DNA of 64,000 bases from Sphaerolaimus hirsutus (Eukaryota > Nematoda > Chromadorea > Monhysterida > Sphaerolaimidae), in assembly GCA_964036195.1 (NCBI GenBank), contig OZ038450.1, forward strand, positions 15,254,701 to 15,318,700. Direction: 5' to 3'. A model generated the notes under the pieces. That model ran no database searches. It was not told where the DNA came from and saw only the letters and a program-made list of their open reading frames with translations. The position numbers and the translations under genes are program-made. Position 1 is the first letter of the stretch, and each line of letters begins with the position of its first letter. Below are positions 2,707 to 62,939 of the stretch, one piece after another.

Positions 2707-3415
2707 CATGACTGTGTGGTCACAATGTCTATTGTTACGTTGTTATTAAGTATACTTAAGTATGGTACTGGGCACCGCGTGACTATATTTGTAGTGGTCT
2801 TCATACTCCCAAACAGGGGTTCAGTATACGGTGGTTGGGGGGGGGGTTACCCCCCAAACGCTCCAGCTATCTGTCCAACCTCCGGGCCGCTCAGCTATCT
2901 ATCTATTATTTCTAGGCAAATTTTTGGCTAAAGTCCCTTCAACCCCCCCCCCCTCCCGCAACATCGACGAGCTTTCTATCTACTCTAGTTTTTCACCTTC
3001 AAAATCACTATCGTGATTTTTTAACTTCAAAATCGATATCGTTAATGTGAATTATTGCCTTTATTTAACTGTTATTGACTATAACTATATGTGCGTATAT
3101 ACCTATTTTTAGTTATTTTGCACTTATTTTTAGCGATTGATTTTTTTCTTCTACTCCTTGAAAAAGCCTATATATTGAACCTCCGTTAACCCCCCCCCCC
3201 CCCCAAAGAAAATTCTATCCAACCGCACCCATTTAGTATCTATATAAACCCCCGGAGGAGCCAAATTCACAAATGACCCTGCTCCATAAACATACATAAA
3301 TAGGCGGCCGTCTTTGCTCAGAATGCCTATCTTCTATTTGTTTGTTTTTGGTGTTTAAATATTTACATAATTTAATGTTTATTTCTCTCGTAATAACACG
3401 ATGGTTCACGCGCAG
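2707..3415. other. Gene-free stretch with poly-C/G repeat remnants
   Basis: Between the foldback and the first recognised CDF exon there are long C or G runs (about 2837, 2943 and 3190). There is also a repeat segment around 2985-3130 (AAAATCACTA..., TAGTTATTTT...) that recurs near 6280-6420 and 11330-11460. An N-terminal CDF exon could be here, but I cannot identify one. Confidence 0.4.
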
Positions 3416-6400
3416 ACGTGTCAAAAAATACTACAAAAAGCAGGAAGAGATGCAGAAAAACTACGAGGAGGACCAGAAGACCGTTCTGGTGCCAGTCCCT
3501 GACCCTGTAAAATGCCCTGTTAAATGTCAAATGTCATGCATTGTGTCAAAAGTCATGGTAAATGCCCTGCAAAATGGCAACTCGGTTGCCATTTTGCAGG
3601 GCATTTTCCATGACTTTTGACAGTTTGCATAACATTTGATATTTTACAGGGAATTTTACAGGGTCTGGGACTGCCCCCTGGCGTACGAACACCGCCGGGT
3701 CAATTCGGCCGCTGTGTTGCGCAACCAACGACCCACCACCGACTCCGCCCACACTGCGGACGGCAGCGAGCCGAGCGTCGCCGCCAAGCCGTCCACCGCG
3801 ACCGGCACCGGCCAGCAGGACGACAAGCCCACCGCCGTTGACACGGCAGTTGCAGATGGGCGGGAAGGCGACGCCCTGGTGGAAAGCGCCCTGCGCACTG
3901 CTATTGAAGACAGCGACGCGTTTCAGAAGAAGTTTGTTGTTGTTATTTTACGGATGTAGATGGCTCGTTTGAGTAAGATTCTGATAACAATTTATCATTA
4001 CAGCGGTCTATGACTCTTATTTAGTGTATTATCAAATTACCCAAGGACGAATCCAGGGGGGGCGGGGGGGGCTCCCTCTTCCCGGAGTGAGACCTCAAAA
4101 GTACCGGAAACTGCAACTTTTCCTATATTTTTTGCGATGTTTCTTAAAAATTTTGCGCGCAAGCGCGCAATTTCTTCCCCATGCAGTGTATTTTCAGTGG
4201 ATCGGCCCGTTTAAACCAAAATCCTTGGAAATGAACACATTTTTGCGAATTTCGCTGCAAATTTATGCATATTTCCATACATATAAAGCGGTTCCTGGCG
4301 CTGGCGCCAACGCCAATAGCGCCATGGCGTGGCGCCTTTGTATGGCGCTAGCGCCAGAACGCTTTTCCGCCCTTATATAGGGAAAAATTTTAGGGGGGGG
4401 GGCTGAGCCCCCCCCGTTCGCCGGCCCCCGTAAACAAGCAGCCCCCCCCCCCGCTCAAAAATCCTGGATACGTCCCTGAAATTACCCAATAGGGCTAAAG
4501 AGGCTAAACACTCGTCTAATTCATTCATCTCTGTCCCTCCTTCCATAACATTCTCCTACATATAATCCAGTATTTGATTATTTCCATACTTTAACTCTCA
4601 TACCTAGGTCCTGACCCCCAAAATATAAATACTGACAATCTTTTTCACTTATTATTTTCTGCCGCGCAATAAACATCCCTCTGGCCACTCAGAAATGTGT
4701 CGGCGAAACGCCGCGCCAAACTGATGGCCCAGCTCAGCTTTGGCATCAACGTGATCCTGTTGTCGGCCAAAACGGTGGCCACATTAATCTCGGGCAGCTA
4801 TTCGATCATCAGCAGTCTAGTCGATTCGGTCGTCGATCTCACCAGCGGCGGGGTGATTTGGTACACGGAGCGCGCGATCAGGTGCCAGTCCCAGATCCTG
4901 TAAAATGCCCTGTAAAATGTCAAATGTCATGCAAAGTGTCAAAAGTCATGGAAAATGCCCGGCAAAATGACAACCGTGTTGCCATTTTGCAGGGCATTTT
5001 CCATGACTTTTGACACTTTGCATGACATATGACATTTTACAGGACATTTTGCAGGGTCTGGGACTGCCCCCTGGACCAGAGACCCCTACGAGTACCCGCG
5101 CGGCAGGACCAGATTGGAGCCGCTGGCTTTGGTGGTCATTTCCGTGGTGATGGCCGTCGCCAGCATTCAGGTTTGCACCGGTCAGTGACCAGCTGCCGTG
5201 GCAGACAGGTCTTTTCTTTGTTGGTGGAAACTGGAATGGGTAACCGTTTTTGCTGGTTGCTTGCTGAGCTCTTTTCATATAACTATGGTTTTATCACGGG
5301 ATGTTTATTTTCATTTTTCGTAGTTGGTATTCCAATTTGATGTTATTTTAATCTTCCTTTGAATGCCTTTACAAGTTACCGTTTTTTTAGAGTGCAAATT
5401 TCGAGAGGGGTATTATTTCGCCAGAAATTTCCATGGAGGATCGTAGTAAAAAATAGGTATTTACATACCCAAGACGTGAAAAATAGATGTTAGATCGTTA
5501 CACAAACAAGTCTGTGTATTATTTCGAGGGGATATTTTTCCTCCAGCTCGCTCTGAGATCTGGGCGTATTTCGAGGGCGTATTTTTCCTTCAGCTCGCTC
5601 AAATCTCGGGGTTTTTCGACGGGGGGGGGGTAATTCAAGGGGGCGTTTTCGATGAAATACAGTAATACATTTAGAGGTAAGGTATCGTAACTTTACAAAC
5701 TTAATCCCGGATAGTGGCAATGCCTGTGCTTTTTATCATTTATATTTACACTGAAGCATAAATACAACCCCCAACAGGTGATCGTGCAATCAACAGAAGC
5801 CATAATATCTGGCGGGATCGAGCTGGACGTGTCTCCGGTGGCCATCTCGCTTATGGTGGCCACCGTGTTCGCCAAGTTCATTCTCATGGTGCTGTGCAGA
5901 CGGGCGGCGGCCGCGGGCGCCGGCGACGCTTCTTGCACTGTGCTCGCTCAGGTGCGCCAGGTTTTGTGGTCGTTTTGCTTTGTTGGTCAAATATGCATGG
6001 ACGTTCCCGGGATTTTTGAGCGGCCCGGTTGTATACGGGGCCTGGAGAACGCTGGCGCGCCCACGTAAATTTTGACCCTGTGGTAATATGGTGGAGTCAT
6101 GGCGCTGGAGCCCTTTGTAGACTCCGCGCCACTGCAGTAAAATATTAGCGTCCTCGTCAACGTACGCCACCGTATTTTTTCTAATAGAAGAACGCCGTTC
6201 TATTGATCTGGAACGATTTTTGAGAAACTGTCCCCCAATTTTCACCCAAAATCGCTATTTTTAATACTCTTTTATAGATTTTCACCTCCAAAATCACTAG
6301 TTCATGCATCTAACTGCCTATTTTTTGTACTATATGCCATTATGTTATATAGCCATTTTTAGCCATTTTTCACCTACTTTTAGCCATTTTTCACCCTTTT

Positions 6401-8246
6401 CTTCCTTATAAACAATTCAAAGAACCGGTCAATTTAAATGGAATTTTTAAATTTCAATTGATTCTCACTCAGCCCGAAATTGAAGTTTGGCTAAGCCAAT
6501 TGGTGTGGAGATACCTACAGGTGTTGCCAATGTTCACCCCAAATCGGACCCCTGTAGCTGCTCCAATGCAGCCACAGGGGCATTTTCTGTATAAAAAATT
6601 TAAAATTTCTGTCTGGCTTGAACTTCCTTTCTTTACATCTTTCAAAAGCCTATCTATCGAACCCCCGCAACCCCCCCCCCCAAAATCCCCCCCCCAATTT
6701 TTTCCAACTATCAATCTATTTCGGAGGCCGCTAAGCTACCTATCCAACCCCCGGAGGGTCAAAATCTAGAAGACCCCGGGCCGTTGTATTGGAGATGCAC
6801 CCCCCCCCCCCAGCAACCCATATTTAATGGTCGATTCACCATTGAAGTGTAGTCAGACACTACTTCCTAGTTTATGTGAATAATAGCCTAATTTGGTCCA
6901 TAATCATGGTATTTTTAGGATCACCGGAACGACTGCATCTCGAACTCGGTGGCTATTGCGTGCGCGATAATTGGCGACCGGCTATGGGTATATGCCGATC
7001 CCATTGGCGCAATTCTCGTATCCATCTATATTGTGGTCACTTGGTTCAATACGGGCTATGAGCAGGTACGCTTTACTAAACATTACTCGCGGAATAAACT
7101 TAGTAACCGAATAAAATCGTTAGTGGTAAGGGAAGTGACAGTATTATTCAATTCAACTCACTTTTCACTTGACTATACCTTTACTTATTGCTAATAACTT
7201 CCCTTGTCAGTAGTTTTCTTTTTGCTGAGGTGTAGCCATAATAGAAATTGGCAACCGGAATAAGTTCTGCACAAACTATTGCAACCAGCGAAAATATTTA
7301 TAAATTTTTTGAGCGTTTGATCGGATGAAAATATTATTTTGATCTCTGCCGCAATGCCACACCTCTCGGCAACCCCACATTTTCAACATTTTCTCACACT
7401 TTCAGATTGTGATGCTGTCAGGGAAGTCGGCCCCGCCCGATCTAATAAATAGAATAGTGCGCGTGTGTTTGATGCACGACCCACGCGTGATTTCAATCGA
7501 CACCGTGCTCGTTTATCACTTTGGCTCAAAGTTTCTCGTCGAGGTCGGTTTGCAACTTGTTGCCATTTTAAGTGGCCTCGAATTTCACACGTTTCGCTTC
7601 CTGGCACAGTCTCTTGACTTTGAAATACGACAATTTCACAAGGCATATGTGGATTCGGATGTATTTAATTGTATCAAGTATTTTTGTGTCAAGGATTTGC
7701 TGAAGCTATTTATGTTCGGTGTCGGTCATTAGTTCAGCAGTTTGTGGTATTATATTATTTTTCACTGCAGATAATAATGATTACCTAATGCGGTATATAG
7801 TAATGGGTAATGCATATTTCAAATTTCTAGCAAACGGCGCATGGTCTTGCCAATACAAAAATTATTGTAGGTTGAAATCAAAACTCTCTCTAAAAAATAG
7901 TTCTCATATATAGTCTACAATAGTTGCGGGAACATGAAAATGGACGAAACCTGCCTCATAACAATGGTCGTAAATTTGAAAATTTTCAGTCATAAAGCCG
8001 AAAAAAACCTTCATTGATCTTATTTCTGAATTTACGGTAATCAATCACCCTTCACTACTAAAATCTATCATTCCAATATCCCAGGTGCACATAGTTCTGG
8101 ACGGCGAGATGTCCCTGCGCGAGTCGCACGACCTCTCCGAGCCGCTGCAGAACAAGATCGAGGCTCTCGATTGGGTGGAGCGAGCGTTCGTACACAATGA
8201 TTACGATACTGAACACAGGCCCGAGGATGAGCACAAGATTGTGTGA
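3416..8246 (+). CDS. Cation diffusion facilitator (Mn-CDF-type metal transporter), 5' end incomplete
   Basis: This is a multi-exon proton-coupled divalent metal transporter of the CDF/SLC30 family. Exons are 3416-3488, 3681-3931, 4693-4881, 5074-5170, 5778-5951, 6919-7065, 7406-7543 and 8085-8246 (TGA). The first exon matches the N-terminal basic motif of the family (VKKYYKKQEEM). Transmembrane helix 2 carries DSVVD (about 4828), followed by the conserved DPYEYPRGRTRLEP loop. Helix 5 carries DHRND (6919). Both sites fit DxxxD, the pattern of the Mn-CDF branch, rather than the HxxxD of zinc transporters. The last exons encode the cytoplasmic domain ending in an HxPxxEH motif. All exon phases agree. 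Five introns are GT-AG, but the gaps after 3488 and 4881 are palindromic insertions without a usable acceptor. The start codon is unresolved: an in-frame ATG at 3342 exists, but CGCAG just before 3416 looks like a splice acceptor. Substrate is inferred. Confidence 0.88.
3489..3680 (+). mobile_element. Palindromic intron-like element, copy 1 (192 bp, inside CDF coding sequence)
   Basis: It begins GTGCCAGTCC and ends GGACTGCCCCCTG, and lies between codons CTG and GCG of the CDF gene (phase 0). About 90-base arms fold into a nearly perfect hairpin, centred on TGCAAAATGGCAAC/GTTGCCATTTTGCA around 3570-3600. Because G flanks both sides, the excision point can slide within a GG dinucleotide; every choice restores the same frame. 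The first dinucleotide can be GT, but the last is TG, CT or GG, never AG. Confidence 0.85.
4044..4480. mobile_element. hAT-like MITE in a CDF intron
   Basis: The ends AGGACGAATCCAGG and CCTGGATACGTCCCT are imperfect inverses. ATTACCCA is repeated at 4036-4043 and 4481-4488 (8 bp). The interior has long G and C runs and GGCGCC-type palindromes. The element sits in the GT-AG intron 3932-4692. Its ends resemble those of the element at 8507-8951. Confidence 0.7.
4882..5073 (+). mobile_element. Palindromic intron-like element, copy 2 (192 bp, inside CDF coding sequence)
   Basis: It has the same ends and exactly the same length as copy 1, with roughly 10% differences by eye in the left arm. It splits an AGG arginine codon (phase 2): ...GCG ATC AG before, G ACC AGA GAC CCC after. 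Precise removal gives the CDF sequence AIRTRDPYEYPRGR. Reading through gives a stop within eight codons of the left end (TAA after ATC CTG). The last AG inside the right arm would leave 19 extra bases and break frame. Confidence 0.87.
5171..5777. other. CDF intron (GT-AG) with degenerate ACCGTATT-family sequence
   Basis: The donor is CAG|GTTTGC and the acceptor is CAACAG|GTG. Around 5395-5670 there are repeated motifs of the type TTTCGAGGGG...TATTTTTCC, related to the interior of ACCGTATT elements, but clear termini are missing. No gene is seen. Confidence 0.6.
5952..6918. other. CDF intron (GT-AG) with repeat fragments
   Basis: This intron holds an ACCGTATTTTTTCTAATAGAAG fragment near 6169, a copy of the AAAATCACTA/TAGCCATTTTT repeat (6280-6420), and poly-C blocks at 6670-6700 and 6799-6812. 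No exon is recognisable between the two CDF exons. Confidence 0.5.
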
Positions 8247-9767: not shown

Positions 9768-10789
9768 CAGGGTTGGCAAAATCTCAGAAAAGAATAAAAA
9801 TAAAATTAAAATAAAATAGAAAACTGAAGAATAAAATAAAATAAAATAAAATGGAAAATTACAAAATAAAAATAAAAATTGTATAAAAATTCGAATTTTT
9901 GTTAAATTTTTGTAAAATTGTATACAAATTCATATTTTTGTAAAAATTGTATAAAAATTCATATTTTTTGTAAAAAAATTTTCTGTTGTTTATAGTTCAA
10001 CCTGTTCATTCGCGGAGCTGGGGCAGTCCCAAGCCATGTATATGTCAAAATGTCATATGAAATGGAATGGAAAGTGTCAATTTTCATGAAAATGTTAAGG
10101 TGTCAAATGTCATGACAAATATAAATTAAAGTGGAAAATGTAAAGCAAATTGTATCCAAATCTTATCTTTTGTATCCAAATCTTGTTGTTTTTGTAACCA
10201 AATCTTATGTGTACATTTGGATACAAAAACATAAGATTTGGATACCAAAATATAAGGTTTGGATACCAAAACATAAGATTCAGATACACAATTTACACTC
10301 TGCATGACATTTGTCATGACAATTTTACTTTGCTTGACATTTGAGATGCCAATTGACCCTTTACTACATTTGTCATGACAATTGACACTTTGCATGATGT
10401 TTTACAAATGTGCCCAGCACACTCCAGTAATCCTTCTTCTGAAAATGCAAACCATTCTTATCGATAATTGTAACTTAACACTTGCAACTAGCTAACAATA
10501 CCTACTGCATGCAACTTTTGCAAAGTAATTGAAAAATTTTTCACGTTTTTCATGTTTAGGTCTAATTATCACATTTTTCTGACCTTGCATGCGAGATTCT
10601 GATTTTTTGTAAAATTTCTGTAAAATTTTTGTATAATTTTTGTAAAATGATCCATTTTATTTTTTTATTATTATTTTGGAATAAAATAAAATAAAATAAA
10701 ATGAAACAAGAATAAAATAAAAATAAAATACATTTTTATACAATTTTTATACAATTTGTATACAAATTATTTTTATAAAACCAACCCTG
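9768..10789. mobile_element. hAT-like element, CAGGGTTGG ends, carrying an inner palindromic insertion
   Basis: The ends are CAGGGTTGG and CCAACCCTG with the 8-bp duplication TTTGTAAG (9760-9767 and 10790-10797). The subterminal parts are AAAATAAAAT arrays. Roughly 10016-10427 is a separate palindromic unit beginning GGGGCAGTCCC. Its core repeats GTATCCAAATCTTATG-like words on both strands and resembles the CAGTCC-end family found in the CDF gene. No transposase frame is present. Confidence 0.75.
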
Positions 10790-20269: not shown

Positions 20270-20434
20270 CCTGGAGGCAATCCCAGACTCTGTAAAAGAG
20301 CCTGTAAAGTGTCAAATTCTTTGTAAAATGTCAAAAGTCATGTTAAGTACCCTGTAAAAGGTCCTGTGTTACCCAATTGTTAAAACTCGCAAAAAATCTA
20401 TACAGGGTCTTTTACAGGATTTAGGACTGGCGCC
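20270..20434 (-). mobile_element. Palindromic element related to the intron-like CAGTCC family, reverse orientation
   Basis: On the minus strand it begins GGCGCCAGTCCTAAATCCTG and ends CTGGGATTGCCTCCAGG. This matches the ends of the elements at 3489, 4882 and 32975. It is about 165 bp with complementary arms. The flanks are GC-rich, and the minus strand reads through both sides for a short distance when the element is removed, but I cannot identify a gene there. Confidence 0.6.
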
Positions 20435-22737
20435 AGTTGGGGGAGCGGTACGCCCAGTTTGCTGAATACGACTGCCCAGTTTACTGAATAATTTGCTGAA
20501 TACGACTGCGTTTACTTGACCCGTTTGATAATTGATGTTGTTTCCACCTTTACATTTTCCTTGGGATTATTCATGCTCATGCTTAGTCGCGAAATTTTTA
20601 CAGTCACTTTACAGATTTTTCCTCAAGAATATTGGGAAATGTTGTACCGATCTGTTTTTCACAAGAAATATTGGGAAATTGGGGAAAAGATGAAAACGTT
20701 TACTTGGACGTTACTTTCCAATCGGCACTTTCTGTTTCGGTACGAACGAGCCCGCAGTAGTCACGCATTTCGCTCTGAATTCAAATCAGCACTGATTTAA
20801 GTTTGCTTTGCCCACTTCGCTCTTCCTAGATTATGCGCTGACCGTGTTGAAGCATAAGTTGGGGAAATGCGCTTTAAAATTTTGTGCCGACGAACGCCTG
20901 TGACTGAAGGCGTAAATACTGTGCCTTACATCGATCTCCATTTTTACATGTGACAGCTATCTCTCTCACCGGTGTATGTATATTTTTATTTTTATAATGA
21001 ATACAAAAAGAAAACCTACTGAAGTTCTTCTGCTCAACTTTTCAGACGTTTTTTTGAGCGGGATTATCAAAGCCGGCGCAATTCTACTCTTATTTCGTCT
21101 TTGACTCTTTCATGCTTCATTTTCACGAAGGATCACCTTTTCATTGAAAGATAACCGTTGCATGAGAAAAATGCGCCGGGCGAACGGCGGAGTGTGCCGG
21201 CCTTCATTTAGTCGCCGTCGCCGGAGCTAAACAAACAAATCGGCGGTTGCGCAGCGTCGCGCGTCGCATTTAGTTAGCGGCGCATTGTGTCGCCGTGCCT
21301 GCCTGCAGCGGCCGTCCGGGCTCGCCAGCCAACACGATGGCAAACTCTTTTGATATTTTTGGAAATAATTTTTCGAATTTTTTTCAGATATAGTTTTCGA
21401 AAAAAAATTCAATTAGATTATTGCATTTGCGAATTTTGCCGGACAATTTTGATCAAAGCTTTATGTTTTGCAGCCACCTATGTTTTGCAGCCATCTATGT
21501 TTGAACTGTTGCCGCATGAAAGTTAGCATAGATAGCTTAATTTATTGGATACATTCATGTTAAATAGTAGTTTTGAAGTTTTTTTTGCATTTTATTCATA
21601 TATTTGCATGCATGTGCAGGCACTTCAACCAAAACACTTCTGGAATTTTCAAAGATCGTGTCTTCTCCAGTGGTGAAATAAAAATTCGGAGAGCCGAAAA
21701 AAATAGAAAATTCGATAACGTTTTCGAATTTTCAATTTTTTGTTTACCATCAACACCCATGCAATCTACATAAAGCATTTATATGTGTAGGTAGGTCGCA
21801 AAGCTGCTAAACATAAGTGCACTCTGCCACGCCTCGCATGAGTACCTTGTGCCATTTGTTTAGGCACTTTACGGTAGATGCTAGAATAGAATGCCACTTA
21901 AGTTACTGTCACAGCCCAAATTGTTCCGGGTGGATCAGATAGTTTGATCAGAGATGGAAGATTTGTGCAGCTTAGTTCGTTTTTCCACAATATCATTCAC
22001 AAATACAACAACATTGAGCTATTTGAATGTCAAGAACCGTACATCCTCAATTAGTTCCCCTCTTGAACAGTTCCACTTGAATATTTCCTCCTATCAGGTG
22101 AATGAGTCGAAAAATTCGTCCTAGAATATTCTCGCCAACTCTGGTGGGTGGGAAAACACATCATAAAACACCGCCGGGTAGATTTGATTCTCTGCACTCG
22201 CACTTGTCCCATGTTGGAAATGTACCAATGATAATAGAAGCAATTTGATTTTTGTAGAAACATTTTAAAAAATTTATCGTTATGAGTACGTCAACTTTTT
22301 TAAATCACATGAATTACATATCATCGGCACGCTTCCAGCGTGAACCACGCGTGCAAGGTGTATGAAGTCGAATAATACAAGTATATTAAAAGAGTTTCTG
22401 ATGAACATGTATTTTAGTTTTCTTGTGATAATTTTGTTGTATTGAAATGTCACATTGCCGGCAAATTGACAGAATATCCGGTCCATTGACATTATTAACT
22501 ACCTAGTTCCCAATCTAAAATGTCTGATGAGAAAATACACCACGGGAAGTAATGGGGGATATATGGTAGGTAAATAAAAATTGATGTATCTATCTAAGGT
22601 AGGTATATGGTAGATTCGCGTTAGCAGTCACTTTTCAAAGCATTTTATATGCAAGACCCAGCATGTTTTTTAGAGAAACACTCTAGTATTTTGAATTGAT
22701 CACCTCATTGAGTAACCCCCTTGCACATTTGTTTAGT
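20435..22737. other. Mostly gene-free; one CpG-rich patch at about 21170-21345
   Basis: Around 21170-21345 the base composition changes sharply to GC- and CpG-rich sequence. This could be a promoter-like patch or an exon of an unknown gene, but no open frame there has a recognisable domain. The rest is AT-rich, and I see no supported feature. Confidence 0.35.
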
Positions 22738-26429: not shown

Positions 26430-26716
26430 GTCTTTACTTGCGAGTTACTTTGCTCGACTTAGCTCTTGACTTTTAAAATGACACTTAACTTTGCCACTTG
26501 CGGAACCAGCACCAGGGGGCAGTCCCAAAGTGTCAATTGTGTTTCCAAATCTTATGTTGTTGTATCCAAATCTTGTGTTTGTGTATCCAAATCTTATGTT
26601 CAACATACACAATTGGCAATTTTGGACGGTCCCCTGGAGCTGATTCCGCACAGTGGCAAAGTTAAGAGTCAAGTGAAAAGTCAAGAGCAAAGTCAAGAGT
26701 AAAGTAAAGAGTCAAG
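26430..26716. repeat. Nested palindrome: CTTTACTCTTGACTTT arms around a CAGTCC-end hairpin
   Basis: The outer arms (ACTTGCGAGTTACTTTGCTC... and ...GAGCAAAGTCAAGAGTAAAG) enclose a unit at 26512-26637. That unit begins CCAGGGGGCAGTCC and ends GGACGGTCCCCTGG, ends that match the right terminus of the intron-like family. Its core repeats the word ATCCAAATCTTATGTT. Confidence 0.55.
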
Positions 26717-28424: not shown

Positions 28425-29954
28425 CATAGCGGATTTTGGGGTTAGCATTTTGGGGGGGGGGGGTCAGCCGGTAAGCACGCGTTAATAACTCGGGAACGGC
28501 TTGGCGAAAAATGTTGAAATTTGGATATGTTATGGTTTCAGGTCGGGGCTAGTATCAAGTACGACGATTTTTTTCTACGACCCCCCAGACCGGAGATAGG
28601 GGGGGTCTATAAAAACACTGTAATTTGCGTTTTTTTGGGTGTTGCCAAGAACATGCAAACTTTGAACATCAATAGCTCGGTCATTTGTGAACCGATTTTG
28701 GTCATTAAAATGTTAAAATGATCACAAATGTTCGTAGAGTTCATTTCTGAGGTCAAATCGGAGATACACATTTGTTTATATATCGATTTAACCCGATTTC
28801 GAAATGCAAAATTTCCGCAAAAGTTTGCTTTTTGAACATACTATCCTATTCTCCTGATCGAGAGAAACCCAATGAAACAAAAATGAGATCGATATCTCTC
28901 TCCGATCAAAAGTTATAGCACTTCAAACTTTCGCGTCCCATCCATGTAAATAACCGCATGAAGGTCAATGCGTTCAAATTCAAAACTCCATATCTCGACC
29001 ATTTCTCAGCCGATTTTTACCAATGAATATTTAAAATGATCAGAATAACCTGAAAGTTCCATTTGTATGCTCAGCTTATCTGTATCCTAACTTAAATTTC
29101 CCACACAAAAAAATAATGCAAACTCTTGTATGAAATTATCATTATGAAAAAGCATATTGACAATTTGAACATACAACTGGACTCTTTAGGTTTTTCTGAT
29201 CATTTTAAGTGTTCATTGGTAAAAATCGGCTGAGAAATGGTCGAGATATGGAGTTTTGAATTTGAACGCATTGACCTTCATGCGGTTATTTACCTGGATG
29301 GGAGGCAAAAGTTTGAAGTGCTATAACTTTTGATCGGAGAGAGATATCGATCTCATTTTTGTTTCATTGGGTTTCTCTCGATCAGGAGAATAGGATAGCA
29401 TGTTCAAAAAGCAAACTTTTGCGGAAATTTTGCATTTCGAAATCGGGCTAAATTGATATATAAACAAATGTGTATCTCCGATTTGACCTCAGAAATAAAC
29501 TCTCCGAACATTTGTGATCATTTTAACATTTTAATGACTAAAATCGGTTCACAAATGACCGAGCTATTGATGTTCAAAGTTTGCATGTTCTTGGCGACAC
29601 CCAAAAAAACGCAAATTACAGTGTTTTTATAGACCCCCCCTATCTCCGGTCTGGGNNNNNNNNNNNNNNNNNNNNNNNNNNNNNNNNNNNNNNNNNNNNN
29701 NNNNNNNNNNNNNNNNNNNNNNNNNNNNNNNNNNNNNNNNNNNNNNNNNNNNNNNNNNNNNNNNNNNNNNNNNNNNNNNNNNNNNNNNNNNNNNNNNNNN
29801 NNNNNNNNNNNNNNNNNNNNNNNNNNNNNNNNNNNNNNNNNNNNNNNNNNNNNNNATTTCAACATTTTCGCTCAAGCGGTTCCCGAGTTATTAACGCGTG
29901 CTGACCGGCTGACCCCCCCCCCCCCCAAAATGCTAACCCCAAAAATCCGCTATG
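28425..29954. repeat. 1.5-kb foldback with long, nearly identical arms
   Basis: The left arm from CATAGCGGATTTTGGGG onward (28425 to about 29090) is repeated inverted from about 29160 to 29954. The resemblance is close enough to follow line by line. Both arms contain a long G (or C) run and the sequence around CACGCGTTAATAACTCGGGAAC. The right arm is interrupted by the assembly gap. Confidence 0.85.
29656..29855. other. Assembly gap of 200 N
   Basis: Exactly 200 Ns lie in the right arm of the foldback. By comparison with the left arm (about 28524-28588), the missing sequence should be about 65 bases, so the gap length is probably a placeholder. Confidence 0.95.
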
Positions 29955-32169: not shown

Positions 32170-35100
32170 ATGTTAAATGCGAGCTACAGCAATCTAAGCG
32201 ATGCATCAGCGGCGACAGAGGACGTTTACGATGGCACCTTCGTGGACACTTTTGTGATCACATTCATTGTGCCGCTCTACTGCGTGCTGTTTGTAATCGG
32301 TATGACGGGCAACCTGTGGGTCATCTCCATGCTGTTCCAGATCTATCACACTTATTCTGATGCCAACAGAATCCTATTTTCGTTTACGTGCTGACTTTGA
32401 GGTGAGTTAGTATTGTGATGATGAGGCCAGGCCACTTAACATTCTGAAAGTTTTACATTCTTCCACAATGCGACAGTTTTCATCTAGTTTTCATTGTGAT
32501 AGAGGAAAACAAATGCGAAGTCATAATGTCGTGAAATATTTGAGGGTCCTAAAAAAGAATACGTAAGTATTTAAATAAATGAATGATAAAAATTTAAGGA
32601 AATGTCAAGAAACACCTTAATCCTTAATATAAATATCACTTCATCTTTGGGTTTTAATGAGTCAATAGGCACTTCTGTAAGAAGCACTCAAGCCGTGTAA
32701 TTATGGTTACAAAGTAGGTATCTACTTTATATGAAAGCGACACGGCGTGGCGATATGCAAACGCACTCTAAAAACGCCGGGTCGCCTCAGCAATCTTGCA
32801 ATCTCGCACCACTGAACCTCCACACGCCCCAGCGTGATCGACGCGCTGGTGCTGCTGTGCGTGCCGGCGACCGTGATGGACATGGTGGCCGACGAGTGGC
32901 TGCTGGGCAACCTTGCCTGCAAGCTGTACTTCCTGCTCGAGGCGAACAACAAGTTCGCGTCCACCTTCCTCCTGGTGCCAGTCCCGGACAACGTAAAATG
33001 CCGTGTCAAATGTCAAATGTCACGCAGTGTCAAAAGTCATAGAAAATTAGGGTTAGTGATGGAATGGCGCCATGGCGCTGGCGCCATTATAGGGCGCCAA
33101 AGGGCGCCGCGCCATGGCGCCATTGGCGCTTGGCGCCCTTTTTCTGTGGCGCCCTTGGCGCCTGGCGCCCACAATCTGAAAGGGCGCCAGCAGGGTTTCA
33201 AGGTGAGTGCTGCGTAAATGAAAAAAATAATGAAAAATGCATCTGTGAATGATCTAAATTCATCAGAAAAATGGACGAAGTGGTGTGAGTTGGTGGAAAT
33301 CTTTCGTCCAACGTTTCATCAGATGTGTCTGACGGATCAGAAGACAAGAATGATAGGCCGTCGAACTTGCAAACTTATAAAAAAAGGATTCAAATCGTTG
33401 CAATTCCGTATTTGTCCATTTCGGGAAATATTGATTAGAAAAGCCTATTTGAAGTGAATGGATTGTTATCAAATGACAATTTCCATTGTGTTTGAATTCG
33501 TCATGATGATTTTATTGAAAAAAAATTTGTTGCCAGATGTGTTTTTGTTCATTACATCCTGAAGAACGCGAATTAAGACGTGAATGCGTGTACCACGGTG
33601 CTGTAGCAACTTTTTAGCACAAGCAAGGTGTTGTAGGCACTTATTTTTCCTGGCGCCCTTGGCGCCTGGCGCCCTATTTTCCAAATGGCGCCATGGCGCC
33701 CTTGGCGCTTGGCGCCCTCTATCCGTGGCGCCCCTGGCGCCTGGCGCCCACTTTCCGAATGGCGCCATGGCGCCCTTGGCGCCTGGCGCCCTTTTTCTGT
33801 GGCGCCCTTGGCGCTTGGCGCCCACTTTACGAATGACGCCATGGCGCCCTTGGCGCCTGGCGCCATTTTTTCTGGCGCTTTTCCATCACTAATTAGGGTG
33901 TCAAAAAAAATTTTTTACGGAAAACGGAAAGGTAAAATTTTTTAACTTTACGGAAAACGGAAAACGGAAAGGTATAAAAAAATTATCGGCCAGAAAACGA
34001 AAAACGGAAAGGTAAAAAATTTCACTCAGCGAAAAACGGAAAACGGAAAGGTAAAAAAAAATTATCGGCCAGAAAACGGAAAAATGAAATGCCCGGAAAA
34101 CAGAAAGCGAAATTTTCACAGAAACGGAAAAAAAATAAAGTGAAATTTGCACAGTAATAGACAAATTTGCAGAAGGGAAACCTGCATGCAGGTTTGCCTG
34201 TTTGGCTTTGATTGTGGTAGCTGTACATTCTGCAACTATGGATAATGCCAGTAACTTCACTTGTAGTTCAAGCTTAACTGAACCAACAAAAAATCATCTA
34301 AAGGTAGCAAAAATACACTACAACAACAATAAGAATTTAGCAAAAGTGAACTTTGATGTAACTGAACAGTAAAAAGTATACTCAGCGGACCGCAAAGTAT
34401 GTGTCCAAAATTACTTTGTGTTTTTTTACAGATTTGGATACAGATAAAAATTATGAATGACAGAAGAACCTGGTAGTTAAAAACACCATAGTGGAAAAAG
34501 ATAAAAACAGATTGGAAAAACAATGAAACAATGCCAGGAAACTGAAAATCGAGCCAGAAAATGGAAAAATGGCCTGGAAATACGGAAACGGAAAGGTAAA
34601 AAATTTTCAGCCGGAAAACAGAAAAATGGGCCGGAAAAACGGAAACGGAAAGGTAAAAAAATTTCAGCTGCCGGAAAACGGAAAACGGAAAGGTAAAAAT
34701 TTTTTGGCTGCTGGAAAACGGAAAACGGAAAGGTAAAAATTTTTCGGCTGCAGGAAAACGGAAAACGGAAAGGTAAAAAATTTTCCTGCGGAAAGGCGGA
34801 AACGGAAGCGGAAATTTGACACCCTATAGAAAATGCCCTGCAAAATGGCAATTGGCAATGGCGCCATCTTGCAGGGCATTTTCCATAACTTTTGACACCT
34901 TGCGTGACATTTTACATTTTACAGGGCATTTTACAGCGTCTGAGACTGCCCCCTGGCGGCCGTGTCGCTCGACAGGTACATGGCCGTCAACTGGGGCCGG
35001 GTGGTCGAGCACCGGACGGCCGTGCGCAACGCCGTGATCTGCGTCGTCGTGTCGCTGGCCATGCTCACGCCCGTGCAGCTACAGTCGACGGTGAGTGCCT

Positions 35101-38100
35101 ACATGTCGTCTTGATCTGGCTGCGCACACTAGTTTTCAGCCGAATTTTCGAAAACTGATAAATTAGCTTTGAACACATTTGAGCTTTCTAGAATGAGCTG
35201 TCCGCCAACTGCAGTTGACGGGGGTTAAATATGAGTCATTCTAGAAAGCTCATATCAAAGCTGATTGATGAATTTTCGAAATTTCTGTTGAAAACTAGTG
35301 TGCGTGGGGGCAATGGTTTGCATAGAAATTGGTTTCAATGATCCACTCCGGCTCAAATATTTTGTGTCAATTTGGTTCAGTACCACAGCATTTTTAATTG
35401 ATTTTTTAAAATAAATATGTACCGTATGTCCTCGTAATACCCCCTCGAAATACCCCCTCAAAATGGCCACTATGAATTTATTAGCCCCCCCTCGAAATAC
35501 CCCCCCCACCACAAATTGAGTGTACAGAGAACGTAGATGACAAAACTGCGGTTTGTGATTCGGACACTGTAAAACACACGTTAAAAACAATAAATTGTTA
35601 CGTTAGGACTGTGTTACATACTTATATAGGTCAATAGACTGTTAAATACATATAGCGGTTATTGTTGCATTTTTTACATCTGCGTACGTTACACACGACA
35701 ATTTAGTACTGGAATTTCCAAAAAAATGTCTGACGAAATAATAAGCCCCCCACGAAATACCCCCCCCCCCCCTTGTTTAACCCCCCCCCCCCTTCAAAAC
35801 TCGCACTCTGAAACAATCACCCACGGGATACGGATTCGAGGAAATACGGTAAATTGATTTGGTTTAAATCCATAAAATATATGATTTGATTTTGTTTAAT
35901 TCAGTGCCGGTGTGAGAATAAAACCGATTGTTTTGTTTGGTCGATTTAAGATTGTAATTTTTTCGACCAACACACACGAGCGAAAACTTCGCAGGCGCGG
36001 CCGCTGCACGAGCTCAACATGACCACTGTCAAGTGCATGACGGACCTGTCGCCGATCATGCGCAAGGTGTTCATCGGCTACAGCTTCCTGTTGGGCTACT
36101 TGTGCCCCGCGCTCGTCATCACCGCCTGCTACGGCTCCATGATCGCATCGCTCGTGTTCTCGTCGCTCAGAAACATGCAGTCCAGGATACCCATGAAGAA
36201 GGTGGCGCATTTGTAATCGTTTGATTTCATATTTAGGATTTATTTGGACCGTATTTACATTTGATTCAAATCTGAAAACACCAATAAAAATCAATATATA
36301 GGTAAATGGAAGCAAATTGAATGAAAGTGTCTGAAACGGGGCCAGATCACCCTCGTAAGCCTCCCATGGAACACTCGCAGGTGGTAGTGAGCACGTTTCT
36401 GGTGGTGGCCTTCTACTACGCCGTGTGGACGCCCTACTGGCTGCTGGTCTTCCTGTTCATGTTCGCCGACGTGCACGATCTGCTCGGCAGCCAGCTGTAC
36501 TACATGACCACGTACATCGTGCACGCGCTGCCCTACACCGGCTCCGCGTGCAACTGGGTCTTCTACGCCTACTTGAATAGCCGACTGAGAAGCACCTACA
36601 CCGAGGCGAAGGAATTGAGAATGGCCAGGACCAGAGCTTCGCAGGCCATTAATGCCACGCTAGTCGGTTTCTTTTCGTCATTTAGCTTGACAAAATAATT
36701 TGAAAACGCTACCGTATTTCCTCGAAATAGCCCCCTTGAAATCTGAAAACTCTGAAAAAATTAAACTCCTCTCGAAATACATCCAGCCAAAATGAGTGTA
36801 ACGAGAATGTTATTTTCAAAAACTGCAGTTTGTGATCTGTGTGATGCAGAACACACGTTAAAAACAATGACTGAATGACCTATGTCACAACAGGACTTAT
36901 ACTGTAACTAGGCCTTATATTTACACGTCAGTTATTTTTGCATCTTTCTACTTCTGCATACGTACAAAAAAAACGAATAAGCATTTGAGAGTTCAGAAAA
37001 TCCTGGCCAAATAACAACCCCCCTCGATAAACCCCCTTTAAAATTATCGCTATGAAAGAACAGCCGCCCCGGGGGTATTTCGAGGAAATACGGTAATTTC
37101 GATTCTCCCAATGTAAAAAAACCCGGCGGCGCAGTTGGAGGCGCCCGTCGACTCTGGCGGCCGGCGTCGTTCCACGCCCGTGCCGGTAAAGGCGCCGGCG
37201 CGGCTGCCGTGCATGTCGCAGCTGCGGGCGATCTCGCTGTCGAGCCGCGTCCTGTCGCTGTCCAAGGGCGCCTGCCACAATCCCGACCCCGTGGCGCGCA
37301 ACGGCGCCGGCTTACGGCAGCTCTCCTTCGACTCCAGGATCGGCTCGCCCTGGTGCGACGGCGGCGAGTCGCAGCAGCAGATTCTGGACGGGCACTTGTG
37401 AGTCGTGGTGGGTGTGCGCGTCGATCTGCTTCATTGGGGTGGCCGGCTTTTTTACCTGAGCAGTGGTTCATGTACTGAGGTAGGTAATCGCTCCTCCAAT
37501 AACGTTTTCGGGCAAAGCCGAGATTGCGGGTTGGCGCTAGTTTATTTCGACGCACAGATAGCTGGCTGAGCAAATCCCGGGGTATAAATATACTTAGAGA
37601 GGTAGCTCAAACAATTCGGAGTAAGCATATTGTGGCTCAAGAATGTCGTCCGCCATATATGTACATGCTTTTATACACCGTATTTCCTCGAAGTAATCCC
37701 GGGATATCTATTTTCGCCAGCCGACTTGGGGGGTTTTCGAGGCGAGGGTTAATTAGAGGGGATTATTAATTAGTCAGCATTTTCATGGAAGTCCATCATT
37801 AATTTAACGAAGGTCCATCATTAATGAAGGGTTCTCCCAATCTCTCACAGCGACTTTTCACCTTGCACTCTGGTTCACCCCGGAAGAACGAAGTAAAAGT
37901 GCCAACGATATATCAGTTCATAAAAAGTTGAGGAAATACATTGCTGTAACCTATAATGTTTTACGTCAACTTATTCACAACAATAAGTTTTATTTTTCAT
38001 ATTTTTAGAAAAAAGCGCATGCGTTACCTAGGTAATTATCATTATCCTTCCAACGCGAGACAAAAATAACTGCGCGTGCGGAGGGTCATGAAAATATGTC

Positions 38101-41100: not shown

Positions 41101-44100
41101 TTGATTTGCAGACAGCATTGTGCCAAAGTCACGGCACTCCTGTCTACATCCTGGGAGCGGTTCTACGCTCACGCGCGGAGGACACTGGAGTTCTGACAAG
41201 CCTGTCAGGATTTCAGGCAGCTTTCACCAGTGTTCTAGCAAGGTGCTAGACGCTGGGCGGCACCGGCATTTGACAAGGAGTCATTGTCGGACGGTGGTCA
41301 AACTTTTGCTGGACGTTCCTGGACATCCGGACGCCAGTGACCGCTCGCACGTCCTTCCTATGCCGAGGGAGGGTGACCTGACGGAGACAGGATCGCCACA
41401 GAGCCACGCTAGTCAAAGGGCTGTTTTTTGGGCATTCGCGGAGGTCCCTCGCTCCACTGGGTAAGAGTGGACTCATACCTCGGAAGTGCAAAAGTAGGGG
41501 TATCAGTGTACAAAGGGCTGTAGCTGACAAAGGGCTGTAGCTGACAGAGAGTGGATTTGAAAACCAAGTATTAGGATACTTGGTAGCGTGTAGGGGCTTT
41601 GCGGAGCTCCCATCAAATATACACGCTGTGCCTGCTCGGTACCATCAGATCAGACAGCACAGAAGTGCCAGAATACTGCATTGCACAGGCGCAATTGCAG
41701 AGCAGTGTACAGAAACACTGCCCAGAATCAGAAAGTGCACCAGAGTGCACAGAAACGTGTCACAGGCGACACGGCAAGCGCAGCACTGCGCACGGCGGCA
41801 CAGGAGCCGCTCAGGAAAGCAAGTGGCCGGCGTGGTCACAAGGCACACAGGCGTGCCAGAAAGAGTGCCAGAGCGCTCAGAAAGAGTGTGTACGGACCCT
41901 CCTTGGGCGCACACTGCTGGGCAAATAAATTGTTTATTGTCCAGGTGTATTTGACCGGTGTGTTGAAGTCAACGCGTATAAACAATCACGTCAGGGGCTT
42001 TAGGAACACACCTGGTGCCAGTGCAGTAAAGGTCAACGCGTGAGAACACGTCAGGGGCCTGTAGGACTGCATTGGTATTGTGCGTGGCACAACAAATCCG
42101 TGGTGCACAGAGCACTGCACAGAAAGACGCAGAGAAGCGTCACAAGCGTCACAGGCGACGCACTATAAAGAGAAACAGTGAAGGAAAAATTCATCAGCAA
42201 AAATGGTTTCGCCAACAGGTCACATCAGAAAGACCCTGGGGCCAGCAAAGCACAGGGTGGAAAGTAGATTGGCAAGAGAATTTGCCAAGTATGACCTGGA
42301 GCTATTTGCGGAAGCATCAAAGGAAGATAAGAGAACAGAGATGAGAAGAGTGATTGCAACTATCAAACAGGAGGGTGCAAAATTGGAAAGTGCAATGACT
42401 GCAGTGAGAACTCAATTTGACGCATGGAGGGACATCGTCAAGGACATTGACGAACCCGACCAGTTGGAACAAGAACAGAAGATATACCAAGACTCATATG
42501 AGGAGTATGCAAACATGTCAGACTTGGTGACACAGAAAATTGCAGCCATGAATGTATACATCGAAGAGTTGCAAGACATGATCCAGCAACAGAGCGGAAA
42601 TACCATGTATGAAGTCAATACAGCATTCATACAGCAGATGGCTGCCCAGATGGCTCTGACAGCTCAGGGAGCTGCTCCGGGGGCCAGTTCAACCAATGTA
42701 ACCACAGCAAAGAGCGTCAAATTACAGAAACTGGAAGTGGAACAGTTTACTGGGGAAATTGTCAAATTTAGATCATGGTGGCAAATGTTCGAATCCCACA
42801 TTCACAATCGGACAGATTTGGAGGACATTTCCAAGTTTTCATACTTGAGGAGCTTGCTGAAAGGCTCAGCATTTGGCATGATCAGTGGATTGAGTGTGAC
42901 CGCAGAGAATTATGCACCCGCAATTGCAATGCTCAAAAAGAGATATGACCAGCCAGTTGTGGTCAGAAACACGCTGATGAGTAATATCATGAAGCTGCGA
43001 CAGGCCAGGAATACCTGTCAGGATATGAGAATTTTGTTTGATGCAATTGAAAGGCTGCTCCAGCAGTTGGAGTCACTGGGTGAATCAGTGGAACATCCAA
43101 TGCTGTTGAGCCAGCTGCAACAGAAAGTGCCACCCGAGGTTCTCAGAGAAATCCAGAAGGAACAGGGAACTGAGGAAGCCTTGACGGTGGAAAAATTCAG
43201 AGAGCTGTTTGGCAAGCAGCTAGCGCTCAGTGAGGCTGTACAGCACGCACAGCAAACTGAGGCACCAGTTCAGCAATCGCGCCAGGGATTCGGGAATAAT
43301 CCTCGCGCACAGCAATTCAATAATCGATTCCAAGGCAATGGGAATCGATTCAGAGGGCCAGAGAACCCAAGGACCAGCACAGGGAGCATGTCTGTGATCC
43401 AGAATGGTCAGAGTGCACCACAGGCTGGATTCATGAATCCTGGGAGGCCGTGTGTGTTCTGCAATGACACACAGCAATTACACTTTAATGATAAGTGTCC
43501 AAAGTTCAAAACTGCCAGAGAAAGGAGAGTGATTTTGTCAAAGGCAGAGCGATGCCTGAGATGCCTGCAGAGAGGGCATTACATGAATCAATGTCAATTT
43601 ACGAGAAATTGTTTCTATTGCAAGTCCAATAGGCACCACACTGCGGTGTGCCCAGAGAAATTTGGTGACAATGGCAATGGAAACGCTGGACGGCAAATTC
43701 CAGCGTTCAGAGCGAATGGTCAACAGAATGGCCAGCAATCAGCAAACAATGGCAGAAAGTCTGTGCCGACGGCCGGTCGACCAGCACAGAGCCAACAGAG
43801 AAAGGCTACAGTGAATTGTGTCACTGTAGAAGAAGCTGGACCAGAAATGGTAGAGACAGAAACCATATCCAGCACAGTGGTTACAGAACCAAATACAAAG
43901 CAACAAAATACATCAGTGAACCTGTCAGTGAACAGGAATATGTCAATGTTGATGACAGCCAGAACCGTGATTGAGGCTTCAGAAATGGATACAGAGATGG
44001 AGCCTGAACAGCCACCACTACAGATTCAAGCGTTCCTGGACACAGGATCCCAGGGAACGTACATGTCAGAGAAAGTGGCCAAGAAACTCAATTTGAAGAG

Positions 44101-47100
44101 TACAGGTGAACACCACATCCAGGTGTACACATTCGGAAATGAAAAGCCGCACTATAAAGTAGTACAGCAAGTGGAATTCAGAATGCGGCTCAGAAATGGC
44201 CAGAAAGTGGAAATGGTGGCAGATGTGGTCCCGACGTTGACCACAGAACAAGTCAAAGTGCCTGTATCAGAACAGGACGAAAAGTACCTGCAGAAGTACT
44301 TCCCGGATGAGAGTTACTTTGCAGACAGAATTCCCAAGGAAAAAGGGACAGAGTGCAAGTTCAAGCCAGACATTATAGTGGGCTTGAATTATTTCTGGGA
44401 CTTGATGTCCAGAAACACCAGCACCACCAAACTTCCGTCAGGATTGTATGTCATTCCATCAGAATTGGGATTGCTGATGGGAGGTGGGCAGCTGATGAGC
44501 AACAGAAATCAATGGACCACGGATGGCGCATATCCGGTGGTGGTCAATACAATTGTGCATCAAATTCAGAGAGAAAAGTGGTACGAGGAAGCACCGTTGT
44601 CAATTGCTCCTGTACCAAATGTCAAAGACATGGATAGACTGGATACCATTGGCATAATGGACCAGCCAGACCTCGTCGAGGACGATGAGGCCATCAAGCA
44701 ATTCAATGAGAGTGTACAGAGAAACCCAGATGGACGGTACTCTGTAAAGTTCATGTACAAACCGAATTTGCATGAGCTCCCAGATAACAAGGCAATGGCG
44801 TTCAAGAGGTTCAGATACCTCACCAATAGGCTCAAGAGAGACCCAGAATTACTGGAGAAAATTCAGACAATCATGAAAACGCAAGAGGAGCAAGGAGTGA
44901 TTGAGAAAGTTCAAGAGGATATTATGGATGGCAGAAAGTTCCATATATTGCCTCATCAACCAGTGATAACGCCAGAGAAAACTACCACAAAGGTCAGAGA
45001 GGTATATGATGCCTCAGCGAAACCGCCAGGCATGCCAAGCCTGAATGAGTGCATGTACCGCGGTCCAGTTATACTACCACAGCTGGTAGGGATGCTGATG
45101 CGATTCCGATTGCATGGAATTGCACTGGTCGCAGACATAGAAAAAGCGTTTCTGCAGATTAGTCTGCAGGACAGTGACAGAGATGTGACAAGATTTCTGT
45201 GGTACAAGGATCCCACGAAACCATCTATGGAGGACAACATTCAGATTTACAGATTTGCCAGAGTGCCATTTGGCATAATCTGCAGCCCAGCGCTGCTAGC
45301 GCTGACAGTCAGATACCACCTGAATCAAGCTGGCACAGAAAATGCAAAATTGATCGATGAAAATCTGTATGTGGATAATTTGATCCTCAGTGTGGACACA
45401 GAGCAGAAAGCAATCGAATTGTACCAGGAATCTAAAGTGCTGTTCACAGAGGCACAGATGAATCTGAGAGAATGGAACAGCAACAATAAGAGCTTTACTT
45501 GGCAATTGGCAGAGTCAGATGTGGCCAAGGAAATTGTCACAACAGTCCTAGGAATGAAATGGGACACAGAGAGCGACCAGATGTGGCTGAAAACGCCAAA
45601 GACAGTTCAGCAATCACAGTTATCAGAAACTGACCAGAAAATCAAACTTCCCACGAAAAGGACAGTTGCAAAGGTGACTGCGGGATGTTTTGATCCAATG
45701 GGACTCGTTAGTCCTGTCCTACTGCCAGCAAAGAGATTTTTGCAAACGTTATGGCATTCAGGACCAAGTGCCAAAGAATGGGACACACCCCTGTCTGAGG
45801 AACAGACAGCAATTTGGCAGCAACTAGAGACAGAGTTGCTCAAAGTTGGACAGATCAAGTTCAACCGAAATTTGAATTATCAGAGTGGTGCAGATGCACA
45901 ACTGCACATTTTCGTCGATGCCTCAGCAATGGCATACAGCGCAGCGGCATACATATGCCAGAAAACAGAAAATGACAGCGGCACGTCAAGCCTGCTGTAC
46001 TCCAGATTGAGACTCGCTCCAAAGAAATCAGAAGTGACAATTCCACGGCTGGAATTGTTAGCAATGTTGATCGGCAGCAGAATGTCAAAGTTTATTCACA
46101 AGGAGCTCAAGGACGTCAAATTCAGTCAAACAGTCGTATGGTCAGATTCAACTTGTTGTCTGAAGTGGCTGACAACTGCGAAGCCACTGGCATGTTTTGT
46201 CAAGAACAGATTGGATGAAATCAGGAAAATTCAGAGTGAGACAGAAAACATGCATATCAGACACATCGCAGGACTGGAGAACCCAGCTGACATGGCTACA
46301 AGAGGCATGAATATGTCAGAGTTGGAAGGCAGTAACCTGTGGTGGAAAGGGCCAGAATGGCTGATGACTGGAGAGTGGCCAGAGCCAAAAGTGGAGCCAG
46401 TTACGCCAGAAGTAATGGCAAAAATCAAGAAAGAAGAGCTCAAGTTCCCAAAAGCCAGTCCAATTTACCTGGGCACCACACAGCAAGTGGCCAGTGACCC
46501 AGATGTCAGCAATGTGCAAATTTATGAAAGCAGGCAAAGCAACCCATTGGGAATTGAGGTTCAGAGATTTTCATCACTGACAAAATTACTGGATGCAACA
46601 GTATACGTGATGAGATTTGTGCGACAGATGCACAAAAAGCGCAGCAGAAATGGCAGTCAGAGTGGACTGTCAGAAATCATGGAAAATATCTGTGGTACAA
46701 TGAAACCACAAGGAATTATCAGTATTGAAGAGAGAGAGATTGCGTTGAAATATTGGATCAAAGTGACGCAACAGAATCATTACAAAGGAGTGGCAGAGAT
46801 TCTGGCAACAGGCCACAGCAGAGGCAGCCAGAATAGCAAGAAAACAGCTGCAGACCAGCAGTTGATCAAATGGCTCAATGTGCAAATGCATCAGGATGGA
46901 ATCCTGAAGTGCCATGGCAGAATGGAGCATACAGACCCACAGGAGGTCACAGTGCCACTTATACTGTTGCCAGCAATGGCTACAGTGACTCAGCTGATCG
47001 TCAGAGACCAGCATGAAAAGTTGATGCACGCAGGAGTGCAACACACATTGGCAGCAATCAGACAAAAGTACTGGATTACACAGGGCAGACGGGTGATCTA

Positions 47101-61925: not shown

Positions 61926-62864
61926 CTAAACAAAGTACATGACATTCTGCGCATTGGGATGTACAGTGAGCGGTTTACAATGTGCAGATTTGGCTAGTTC
62001 CCCACTGCGCGGCGTGTCGCGTCCACTGCCGCAGCTACCCTCACCCCTGCGAATGTAAATATGTTTGGGAATAAGTATACATGGCGGACCGCAAAGTATG
62101 CGCCCAAAATACTATGTCTTGGTCAATAATGCGCGAGCAGGATACTTATGTATTCACTTTCACAAAAAAGATAAACATTTCAGAAAGAAAAAGCCGGAGT
62201 CATGTACAAACAAGTGTCGAATGTTTTTTCTAGAAATGTTTTTCTGTTTTTGCTGGAACAAGTTTTAATTTATTAACGATGACGTCATGATGGTGTGTTT
62301 CCTTCAGAGAAATGCATAGCATGCGGTCCGTGGAGTATATTTACTTATTTGGGAGCCAATTCCGCACTTTGGCCTAGAGAAAAGTTGTAACGGATTACAG
62401 TTTAGTTGTAACTGAACAAAACACTCAAATTACAAAAATTACACAAAGTTACAAAACACTCAGTGTTTGAATAGTGGCTGGTATTTTGTGTTACCTTGCT
62501 TCTCGCCACAACTTTAATTGTCAGTTCACTTGACAGCCTGTACAACATTTCTTGTCACACTGGGCTTGGAAAAATTGAAGCGGTCATAGTGAGTTTAACA
62601 CAAGGATCGCATAACACCCAGAAGAATGGAGGTTGCAAGAACCACCGAAAACCGGCGCACTCACGTGTCCACCTCCCTGTCGAGCAGGTGATGCCTGGCC
62701 CGGAAGGCGACCAGGTGCGCGTAGTAGGCGGGCGCGGGCAGGGACACGGCCCTGGTGCACCTGGCGTAGGTGTGGCACAGCTGGTAGGTGACCTGCTGCA
62801 GGTCGTCGGCGCTCAGCCCGCTGTCGTCCCACAGCACGTGGTAGTGCGACGGGCGCGACGTGCC
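61926..62864 (-). CDS. Argonaute protein, last two exons (PIWI domain C-terminus)
   Basis: Two exons on the minus strand, 62665-62864 and 61926-62046, are joined by a GT-AG intron (62047-62664). The first encodes [14 protein letters not shown]..., the conserved end of the PIWI domain including the third catalytic-site region (SHYHVLWDD) and [13 protein letters not shown]. The second encodes the Gly/Ser-rich tail and ends MYFV, where most animal Argonautes end MYFA. The splice codon (AC plus G) and frame agree. This is a small-RNA effector of the AGO rather than the PIWI clade, judged by the [13 protein letters not shown] and LCHTYVRCTR-like blocks. Upstream exons must lie beyond the right edge; I find none in 62865-64000. 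Whether it retains slicer activity cannot be seen, as only part of the active site is present. Confidence 0.92.
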
Positions 62865-62939
62865 CTGCGTGCGCACGTTAACGTGGTGGCAGCCACACGA
62901 TGGCGCAGAACAACACTCGAACGCGAAATTGAAAATTTA

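Follow-up and report, generated by a model that had tools for sequence, protein, structure and literature searches.

Introners explain the birth of introns, and few are known in animals. According to a 2022 survey (PMC9860276), just two of the groups with introners belong to animals or land plants, and both are animal groups. The DNA-transposon introners described there are multi-copy, non-autonomous elements that have inverted ends, duplicate their target and make introns, with a splice site partly recruited from the duplicated target. Rare GC and GA 5′ sites are reported, and no TG 3′ ends were found in the survey's main-text account of introner splice sites. Non-canonical introner elements of the dinoflagellate Amoebophrya (PMC7789003) display hairpin-forming terminal inverted repeats of 8–20 nt, short direct border repeats, unusual splice dinucleotides, none of which is fixed, and a transposon-like spread. 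NuwaI, of the PHIS (PIF/Harbinger) superfamily, is found mainly in animals and has inverted ends and a CWG target duplication; introner behaviour is absent from its description (PMC4482050). Inverted-repeat transposons are also taken out of animal mRNA by SOS splicing, described as a defence that operates by cutting and RTCB ligation (PMC13247085). The animal Fritillaria borealis shows a mass escape from the GT/AG rule, its non-canonical introns being mainly AG/AC and AG/AT and its U2AF duplicated (PMC13326754). In the nonconventional introns of euglenids, RNA structure draws the intron ends together and the borders are variable. Human U2 TG 3′ sites are reported to occur only beside an AG within 28 nt, TG never being the sole site (PMC2374985).

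The element described here is from the nematode Sphaerolaimus hirsutus, and three copies were found in a stretch of 64,000 nucleotides (the window; positions 15,254,701 to 15,318,700 of contig OZ038450.1). Unlike the introners of PMC9860276, it is palindromic over its whole length, and a target base decides whether the 3′ end is AG or TG. In place of the short inverted repeats of Amoebophrya there is a palindrome of 190 nt with a fixed 5′ GT, in an animal. Its likeness to NuwaI lies in the inverted ends and the CWG duplication. A strong sense bias and a fixed junction distinguish it from SOS splicing, and a retained 5′ GT, with ordinary introns that are GT-AG, from the Fritillaria introns. In contrast to the variable euglenid borders, the 5′ GT is constant (92 of 96 copies, a figure biased upward, as copies were picked with a GTGCCA-like pattern). 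As with the human sites, the TG 3′ end has an AG near it, here 19 nt upstream, but this AG shifts the frame and TG would thus be the working site. No animal introner family of this kind was found in a literature search that covered titles and abstract openings and few subscription journals.

Two of the copies interrupt a CDF (cation efflux) gene at 3399..8246 of the plus strand, which reads as eight coding pieces: 3399-3488, 3681-3931, 4693-4881, 5074-5170, 5778-5951, 6919-7065, 7406-7543 and 8085-8246. The joined coding sequence starts at 3399 as read, and the true start or N-terminus may lie elsewhere. Copy 1 (3489..3680, phase 0, CTG|GT...TG|G) and copy 2 (4882..5073, phase 2, CAG|GT...TG|G) are hairpin elements of 192 nt each, both on the plus strand. 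Coordinates, length and phases are as given in a first-pass annotation of this DNA, with borders made ambiguous by a shared GG, and the five remaining introns of the gene are all GT-AG, as it had claimed. The hairpin arms, put there at about 90 bases, measure 94 nt in copy 1 (88% complementary) and 96 nt in copy 2 (92%), with a 3-nt spacer between arms. The two copies are 90% identical over 200 nt, and folding with about 10 nt of flank gives predicted energies of -139 kcal/mol for copy 1 and -151 kcal/mol for copy 2. The annotation had also described both as being without GT-AG boundaries. This is true of the 3′ end only, which is TG; both begin with GT.

Precise removal restores the frame, as had been proposed. 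The joined CDF coding sequence is open, matches the Pfam domains Cation_efflux (102.8 bits) and ZT_dimer, and aligns, with no gap across junction 2, to 3j1z and 5vrf, chains from solved cation efflux structures. The Cation_efflux match also spans the copy 2 junction in the second-haplotype allele. Copy 1 falls outside the Pfam domains and is left out of the count of 20 junctions given below. The statement that the only AG near copy 2 leaves 19 bases was too strong, as in-frame GT-AG choices exist: 4888..5079, with a net length change of 0 and TR becoming CQ, and 4882..5079, with two residues fewer. Pfam barely separates these from exact removal (102.1 and 102.1 vs 102.8 bits).

Both CDF insertions are also present on a second contig, which is presumably the other haplotype. 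Over the five CDF coding pieces that lie within the fetched stretch, the contigs differ at 10 of 801 bases, with no indel and no stop. These are 5 synonymous and 5 non-synonymous codon changes, the latter mostly conservative; they are too few to prove selection and by themselves offer it weak support. Element 1 differs at 4 positions between the contigs and element 2 at 16 of ∼193. The CDF gene is probably not dead.

The third copy, missed by the first-pass annotation, is a decayed element that forms a 1,981-nt intron with the same ends (32975..34955, plus strand, CTG|GT...TG|G) in TM3 of a rhodopsin-family GPCR gene. Element sequence survives at about 32975-33047 and 34826-34955, and the interior has been replaced. 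The flanking exon sequence, TM2 to TM4 at 32828..35090 of the plus strand, is identified by Pfam 7tm_1 and by alignment to galanin receptor 2; inspection by eye alone suggests additional GPCR-like frames at 35950-36213 and 36321-36695. Taking out the 1,981 nt restores FLLAAVSLDRYMAV, TM3 of a rhodopsin-family receptor, and the joined protein matches 7tm_1 at 48.8 bits and aligns ungapped to galanin receptor 2. Two GT-AG alternatives tested at this copy ruin TM3, one with 20.8 bits to 7tm_1 and one with no match. Folding predictions still pair the arms: in the full intron, 52 base pairs connect the outermost 80 nt at one end with those at the other, and the duplex formed by the arms has a predicted energy of -75 kcal/mol vs a mean of -25 in 200 shuffles. 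Copy 3 looks like an old insertion in a still-readable gene and is, on sequence grounds, the strongest case of the three window copies.

GGCGCC-rich palindromic repeats and long runs of G or C are common throughout the window, and such repeats also occur inside the expanded intron of copy 3. Three degenerate relatives of the element lie on the minus strand, two of them outside recognised coding sequence (10016..10425 and 20270..20437) and one (26512..26637) with the 3′ end GGGACTGCCCCCTGG kept exactly. A separate long palindrome at 28584-29655, with two 505-nt arms that are 95% complementary and 62 nt apart, runs up to an assembly gap of 200 bases (29656-29855). One uninterrupted frame of 2,900 codons at 42203-50905 is presumably a BEL/Pao-type retrotransposon with an envelope-like part, and a frame of 2,370 codons at 52237-59349 with endonuclease and reverse transcriptase domains is a non-LTR retrotransposon. 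By eye, a minus-strand frame at 62664-62936 resembles the C-terminal PIWI part of Argonaute. An Rfam search of the window gave no match, nor did a search for the element pattern in viral contigs.

The element represents a large transposon family in the window's own genome (348 Mb assembly, 762 contigs). An element query returned 3,714 first-look candidates, 40 of which were scored. Exact 5′ ends (26-mer) number 677 and exact 3′ ends (23-mer) 1,295; reversed versions of these two patterns are not found in this genome. Two samples were drawn, set A with the 39 loci closest to copy 1 and set B with 60 of the 81 places on chromosome C1 that occur among the first 100 listed of the 677 5′ matches. 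All 39 loci of set A and 40 of the 60 of set B together gave 96 distinct oriented copies; in the other 20 set B loci the two-end pattern recovered no element, and these were excluded. The consensus is predicted to fold into one hairpin, and the ends are predicted to pair in 92 of the 96 copies. Many similar copies interrupt the coding sequence of unrelated genes, with inverted ends and a duplicated target, as introners do.

The target can be read from the flanks. To the left of the element stand C in 93, A or T in 89 and G in 89 of the 96 copies; the bases further outside are less fixed (C in 54, G in 62) and point to a preference for a palindromic CCWGG. The left W equals the right W in a fraction of 0.708 of the copies vs 0.414 expected (sd 0.048). 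Agreement of the adjoining G shows a smaller excess (0.875 vs 0.824 expected), and the remaining positions show none beyond expectation in the 96 copies. The 3-bp CWG target duplication deduced from these flanks is the published signature of NuwaI, a PIF/Harbinger-like element. The genome has 163 matches to DDE_Tnp_4, a Harbinger-type transposase domain; most of those listed show several TGA within the profile match, perhaps an intron. An autonomous transposon with the element ends GTGCCAGTCCC/GGGGCAGTCCC was not found among the transposase matches examined. An element end near one transposase was considered as an autonomous Harbinger link and rejected, as it belongs to an ordinary copy.

The two ends of the element differ in origin. 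The left end of the element itself (CWG|GTGCC) contributes the 5′ GT, and the final two bases are those of the target duplicate (CCCC-CWG|). As the 3′ end is drawn from the duplicated CWG, a copy inserted at CAG becomes GT-AG, one at CTG becomes GT-TG and one at CGG becomes GT-GG. Left and right classes among the 96 copies are CTG/TG in 35, CAG/AG in 27, CTG/AG in 8, CAG/TG in 4, CGG/GG in 2 and others in 20, the mixed classes being too few to show drift towards AG. Of the 1,295 exact 3′ ends, the first 100 listed, which all lie on contig C1, comprise 63 AG and 37 TG by hand count.

Protein homology crosses the exact-removal junction in 20 elements, of which 15 end in TG, three in AG and one in GG, and one is antisense. 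The TG junctions are in an IRK channel, an SLC6-type transporter, Dna2, an ionotropic glutamate receptor, an ankyrin protein, Laminin_N, a SpoU methylase, BCKDHA (two copies), Reeler, CDF copy 2, Oscp1, an Srx-like receptor, a xanthine/uracil permease and the GPCR of the window. AG junctions are in an LRR protein, BCKDHA and an AMP-binding enzyme, the GG junction is in an ATRX-like SNF2 helicase and the antisense junction in BCKDHA. The peptides given to Pfam were a chosen set of 57 sense (plus 7 antisense), with at most 50 residues on each side; the spanning matches to Srx (L073) and Ank_2 (L018) fall short of the cut-off, and in the LRR protein (L014) no stretch passes alone. Alignments are ungapped through TANL^AAFLTVERM in the glutamate receptor and, at a GT-GG element, through AANR^VIIFDASWN in the ATRX-like helicase. 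With 15 of the 19 sense elements ending in TG and one in GG, the 3′ AG of U2 introns is not the pattern found here.

One BCKDHA gene (L030, G000:C1:8332200-8338500) has four copies, three sense and one antisense, with homology across every junction. When these are left out and two ordinary introns are bridged by eye, the joined protein of 329 residues matches chain A of 1dtw with E 2e-148. The alignment has no gap at any junction; gaps of one residue occur some five residues away from the antisense copy and some four away from the AG copy. Codon scoring was too weak a test of whether the flanks agree in frame (15 of 27 at threshold 4, 10 of 15 at threshold 6, 2 of 4 at threshold 8); the exact-junction claim is carried by homology.

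The copies in coding-like sequence are strongly biased in orientation. There are 31 sense and 3 antisense copies (p 8e-7, threshold 1), 25:1 at a stricter threshold (p 8e-7) and 38:8 at the loosest (p 9e-6), by a codon model whose training loci were chosen by eye out of a listing limited to sense copies, the tested locus being left out each time. Set A alone gives 23 sense to 2 antisense copies (15 TG, 8 AG), and set B at threshold 1 gives 8 to 1 (2 TG, 5 AG, 1 GG). By homology the count is 19 sense to 1 antisense. All 128 open antisense peptides, from 76 elements, yielded one Pfam match, the BCKDHA antisense copy; with at most 31 residues on each side, they are not strictly matched to the sense set. 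The 3′ dinucleotide shows no such bias: TG:AG is 17:13 (plus one GG) in coding-like sense copies vs 24:23 among the remaining copies (Fisher p 0.65, and between 0.33 and 1.0 at other thresholds). TG is not depleted in coding-like copies, which argues that a 3′ AG is not needed.

Sense and antisense RNAs would form nearly the same stem and differ mainly at the tips, GTGC...CCCCC vs GGGG...GGCAC. Given the sense bias, the tips or ends must carry the signal, and the 5′ GU is the obvious candidate. The antisense copy in BCKDHA need not break a 5′ GU rule, since it has a GT 6 nt in from its border, from which GT-AG splicing would keep the frame and add two residues.

The reading that we consider, on balance, somewhat probable is that the palindromes constitute one non-autonomous, PIF/Harbinger-like (NuwaI-like) introner family with a CWG duplication, whose copies are removed exactly, at ends set by the hairpin, with a requirement for a 5′ GU but not for a 3′ AG. 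The transposon favours CCWGG and duplicates CWG, the inserted copy bringing its 5′ GT and the target duplicate providing the 3′ end. Each copy would then be cut exactly from the pre-mRNA, with a 5′ GU needed as in spliceosomal recognition of 5′ splice sites. The hairpin may bring the two ends of the intron side by side and bury a CAG that lies 19 nt upstream of the 3′ end; a 3′ AG would be dispensable because hairpin geometry fixes the 3′ end. The remover is probably the spliceosome with a structure-set 3′ end, and a conceivable route is that the first step recognises the buried CAG and the second step uses the TG. Removal other than by standard splice-site choice had been proposed in the first-pass annotation for an active gene, and removal from RNA without ordinary AG choice is the best reading of the same exact junction in 20 elements, 15 of them TG and one GG.

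Several points stand against this reading of structure-guided removal. One antisense copy is found inside conserved BCKDHA sequence. A perfect hairpin would leave little single-stranded space for a branch point. The human TG 3′ sites are reported to work only beside an AG (PMC2374985). In-frame GT-AG alternatives are available to copy 2 and to several further TG copies. The search of transposase matches gave no autonomous element with these ends.

A different remover is possible, though we consider it rather unlikely: the RNA hairpin might be recognised as in SOS splicing, with an endonuclease cutting its base and RTCB joining the exons, independently of the spliceosome. Inverted repeats this close to perfect, whose ends are predicted to pair in nearly all copies, are a fitting substrate, and AG, TG and GG ends all occur in conserved coding sequence, as does the one antisense copy in BCKDHA. 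Transposon SOS splicing with RTCB ligation is, moreover, reported in animals (review PMC13247085). Nevertheless, SOS splicing would presumably be blind to orientation, and the sense bias of 31:3, or 19:1 by homology, persists despite a near-identical hairpin; the junction, too, falls at the same bases every time. The hairpin-guided excision that had been named as a candidate is not supported as first stated, because a purely sequence-independent form would not predict such a bias.

Ordinary U2 splicing at nearby GT and AG, with exact removal an over-interpretation, is improbable. It accounts for the copies in CAG sites, which are plain GT-AG introns, and it has the frame-keeping choices at copy 2; some in-frame choice lies at most 30 nt away in 14 of 18 TG-copy rows. 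Such choices, however, drop or replace residues conserved right at the junction, and none is found within 30 nt in the other 4 rows, which represent three distinct insertions (CDF copy 1 and its allele counted once). Both alternatives at the GPCR lose most of the 7tm_1 score. The CAG at -19, present in 74 of 96 copies, shifts the frame with donors at +0, +6 and +18, and copy 1 attains an open frame via this CAG only if at least 63 nt are retained.

Excision at the DNA level in the soma, by precise transposase action or programmed elimination, is very improbable. The CWG duplication would permit exact excision, and Harbinger-type transposases are present (the DDE_Tnp_4 matches above). Yet copy 3 persists in a readable gene although it has lost its interior and expanded to 1,981 nt, both CDF contigs of the assembly contain the elements, and no dependence on orientation relative to the gene would be expected; this candidate of the first-pass annotation is consequently hard to sustain. 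The plain alternative offered there, that of non-functional alleles or pseudogenes, would explain why straight reading meets a stop in each of the three window copies but appears already close to refuted, because the second contig carries both CDF insertions with five coding pieces free of indels (10 of 801 coding bases apart, against 16 of ∼193 in element 2) and because the pattern recurs, with open frames at exact junctions, across many unrelated conserved genes, the four-copy BCKDHA with its match to 1dtw among them.

The palindrome constitutes a natural experiment. Sense and antisense hairpins are near-identical and differ mainly at their ends, so that an orientation bias identifies the ends as decisive; a single target-fixed base separates AG from TG copies, and many loci are therefore available for measuring whether a 3′ AG is needed. 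We think it fairly probable that these are hairpin introns that need a 5′ GU and not a 3′ AG, and that they reflect either a structure-guided spliceosome acting genome-wide or a dedicated hairpin-excision pathway on which the genome depends. If TG copies are spliced well, they would represent a mass exception in an animal to the AG rule of U2 introns and make 3′ splice-site choice directly testable. If they are cut and ligated instead, a whole genome would depend on a supposed emergency system.
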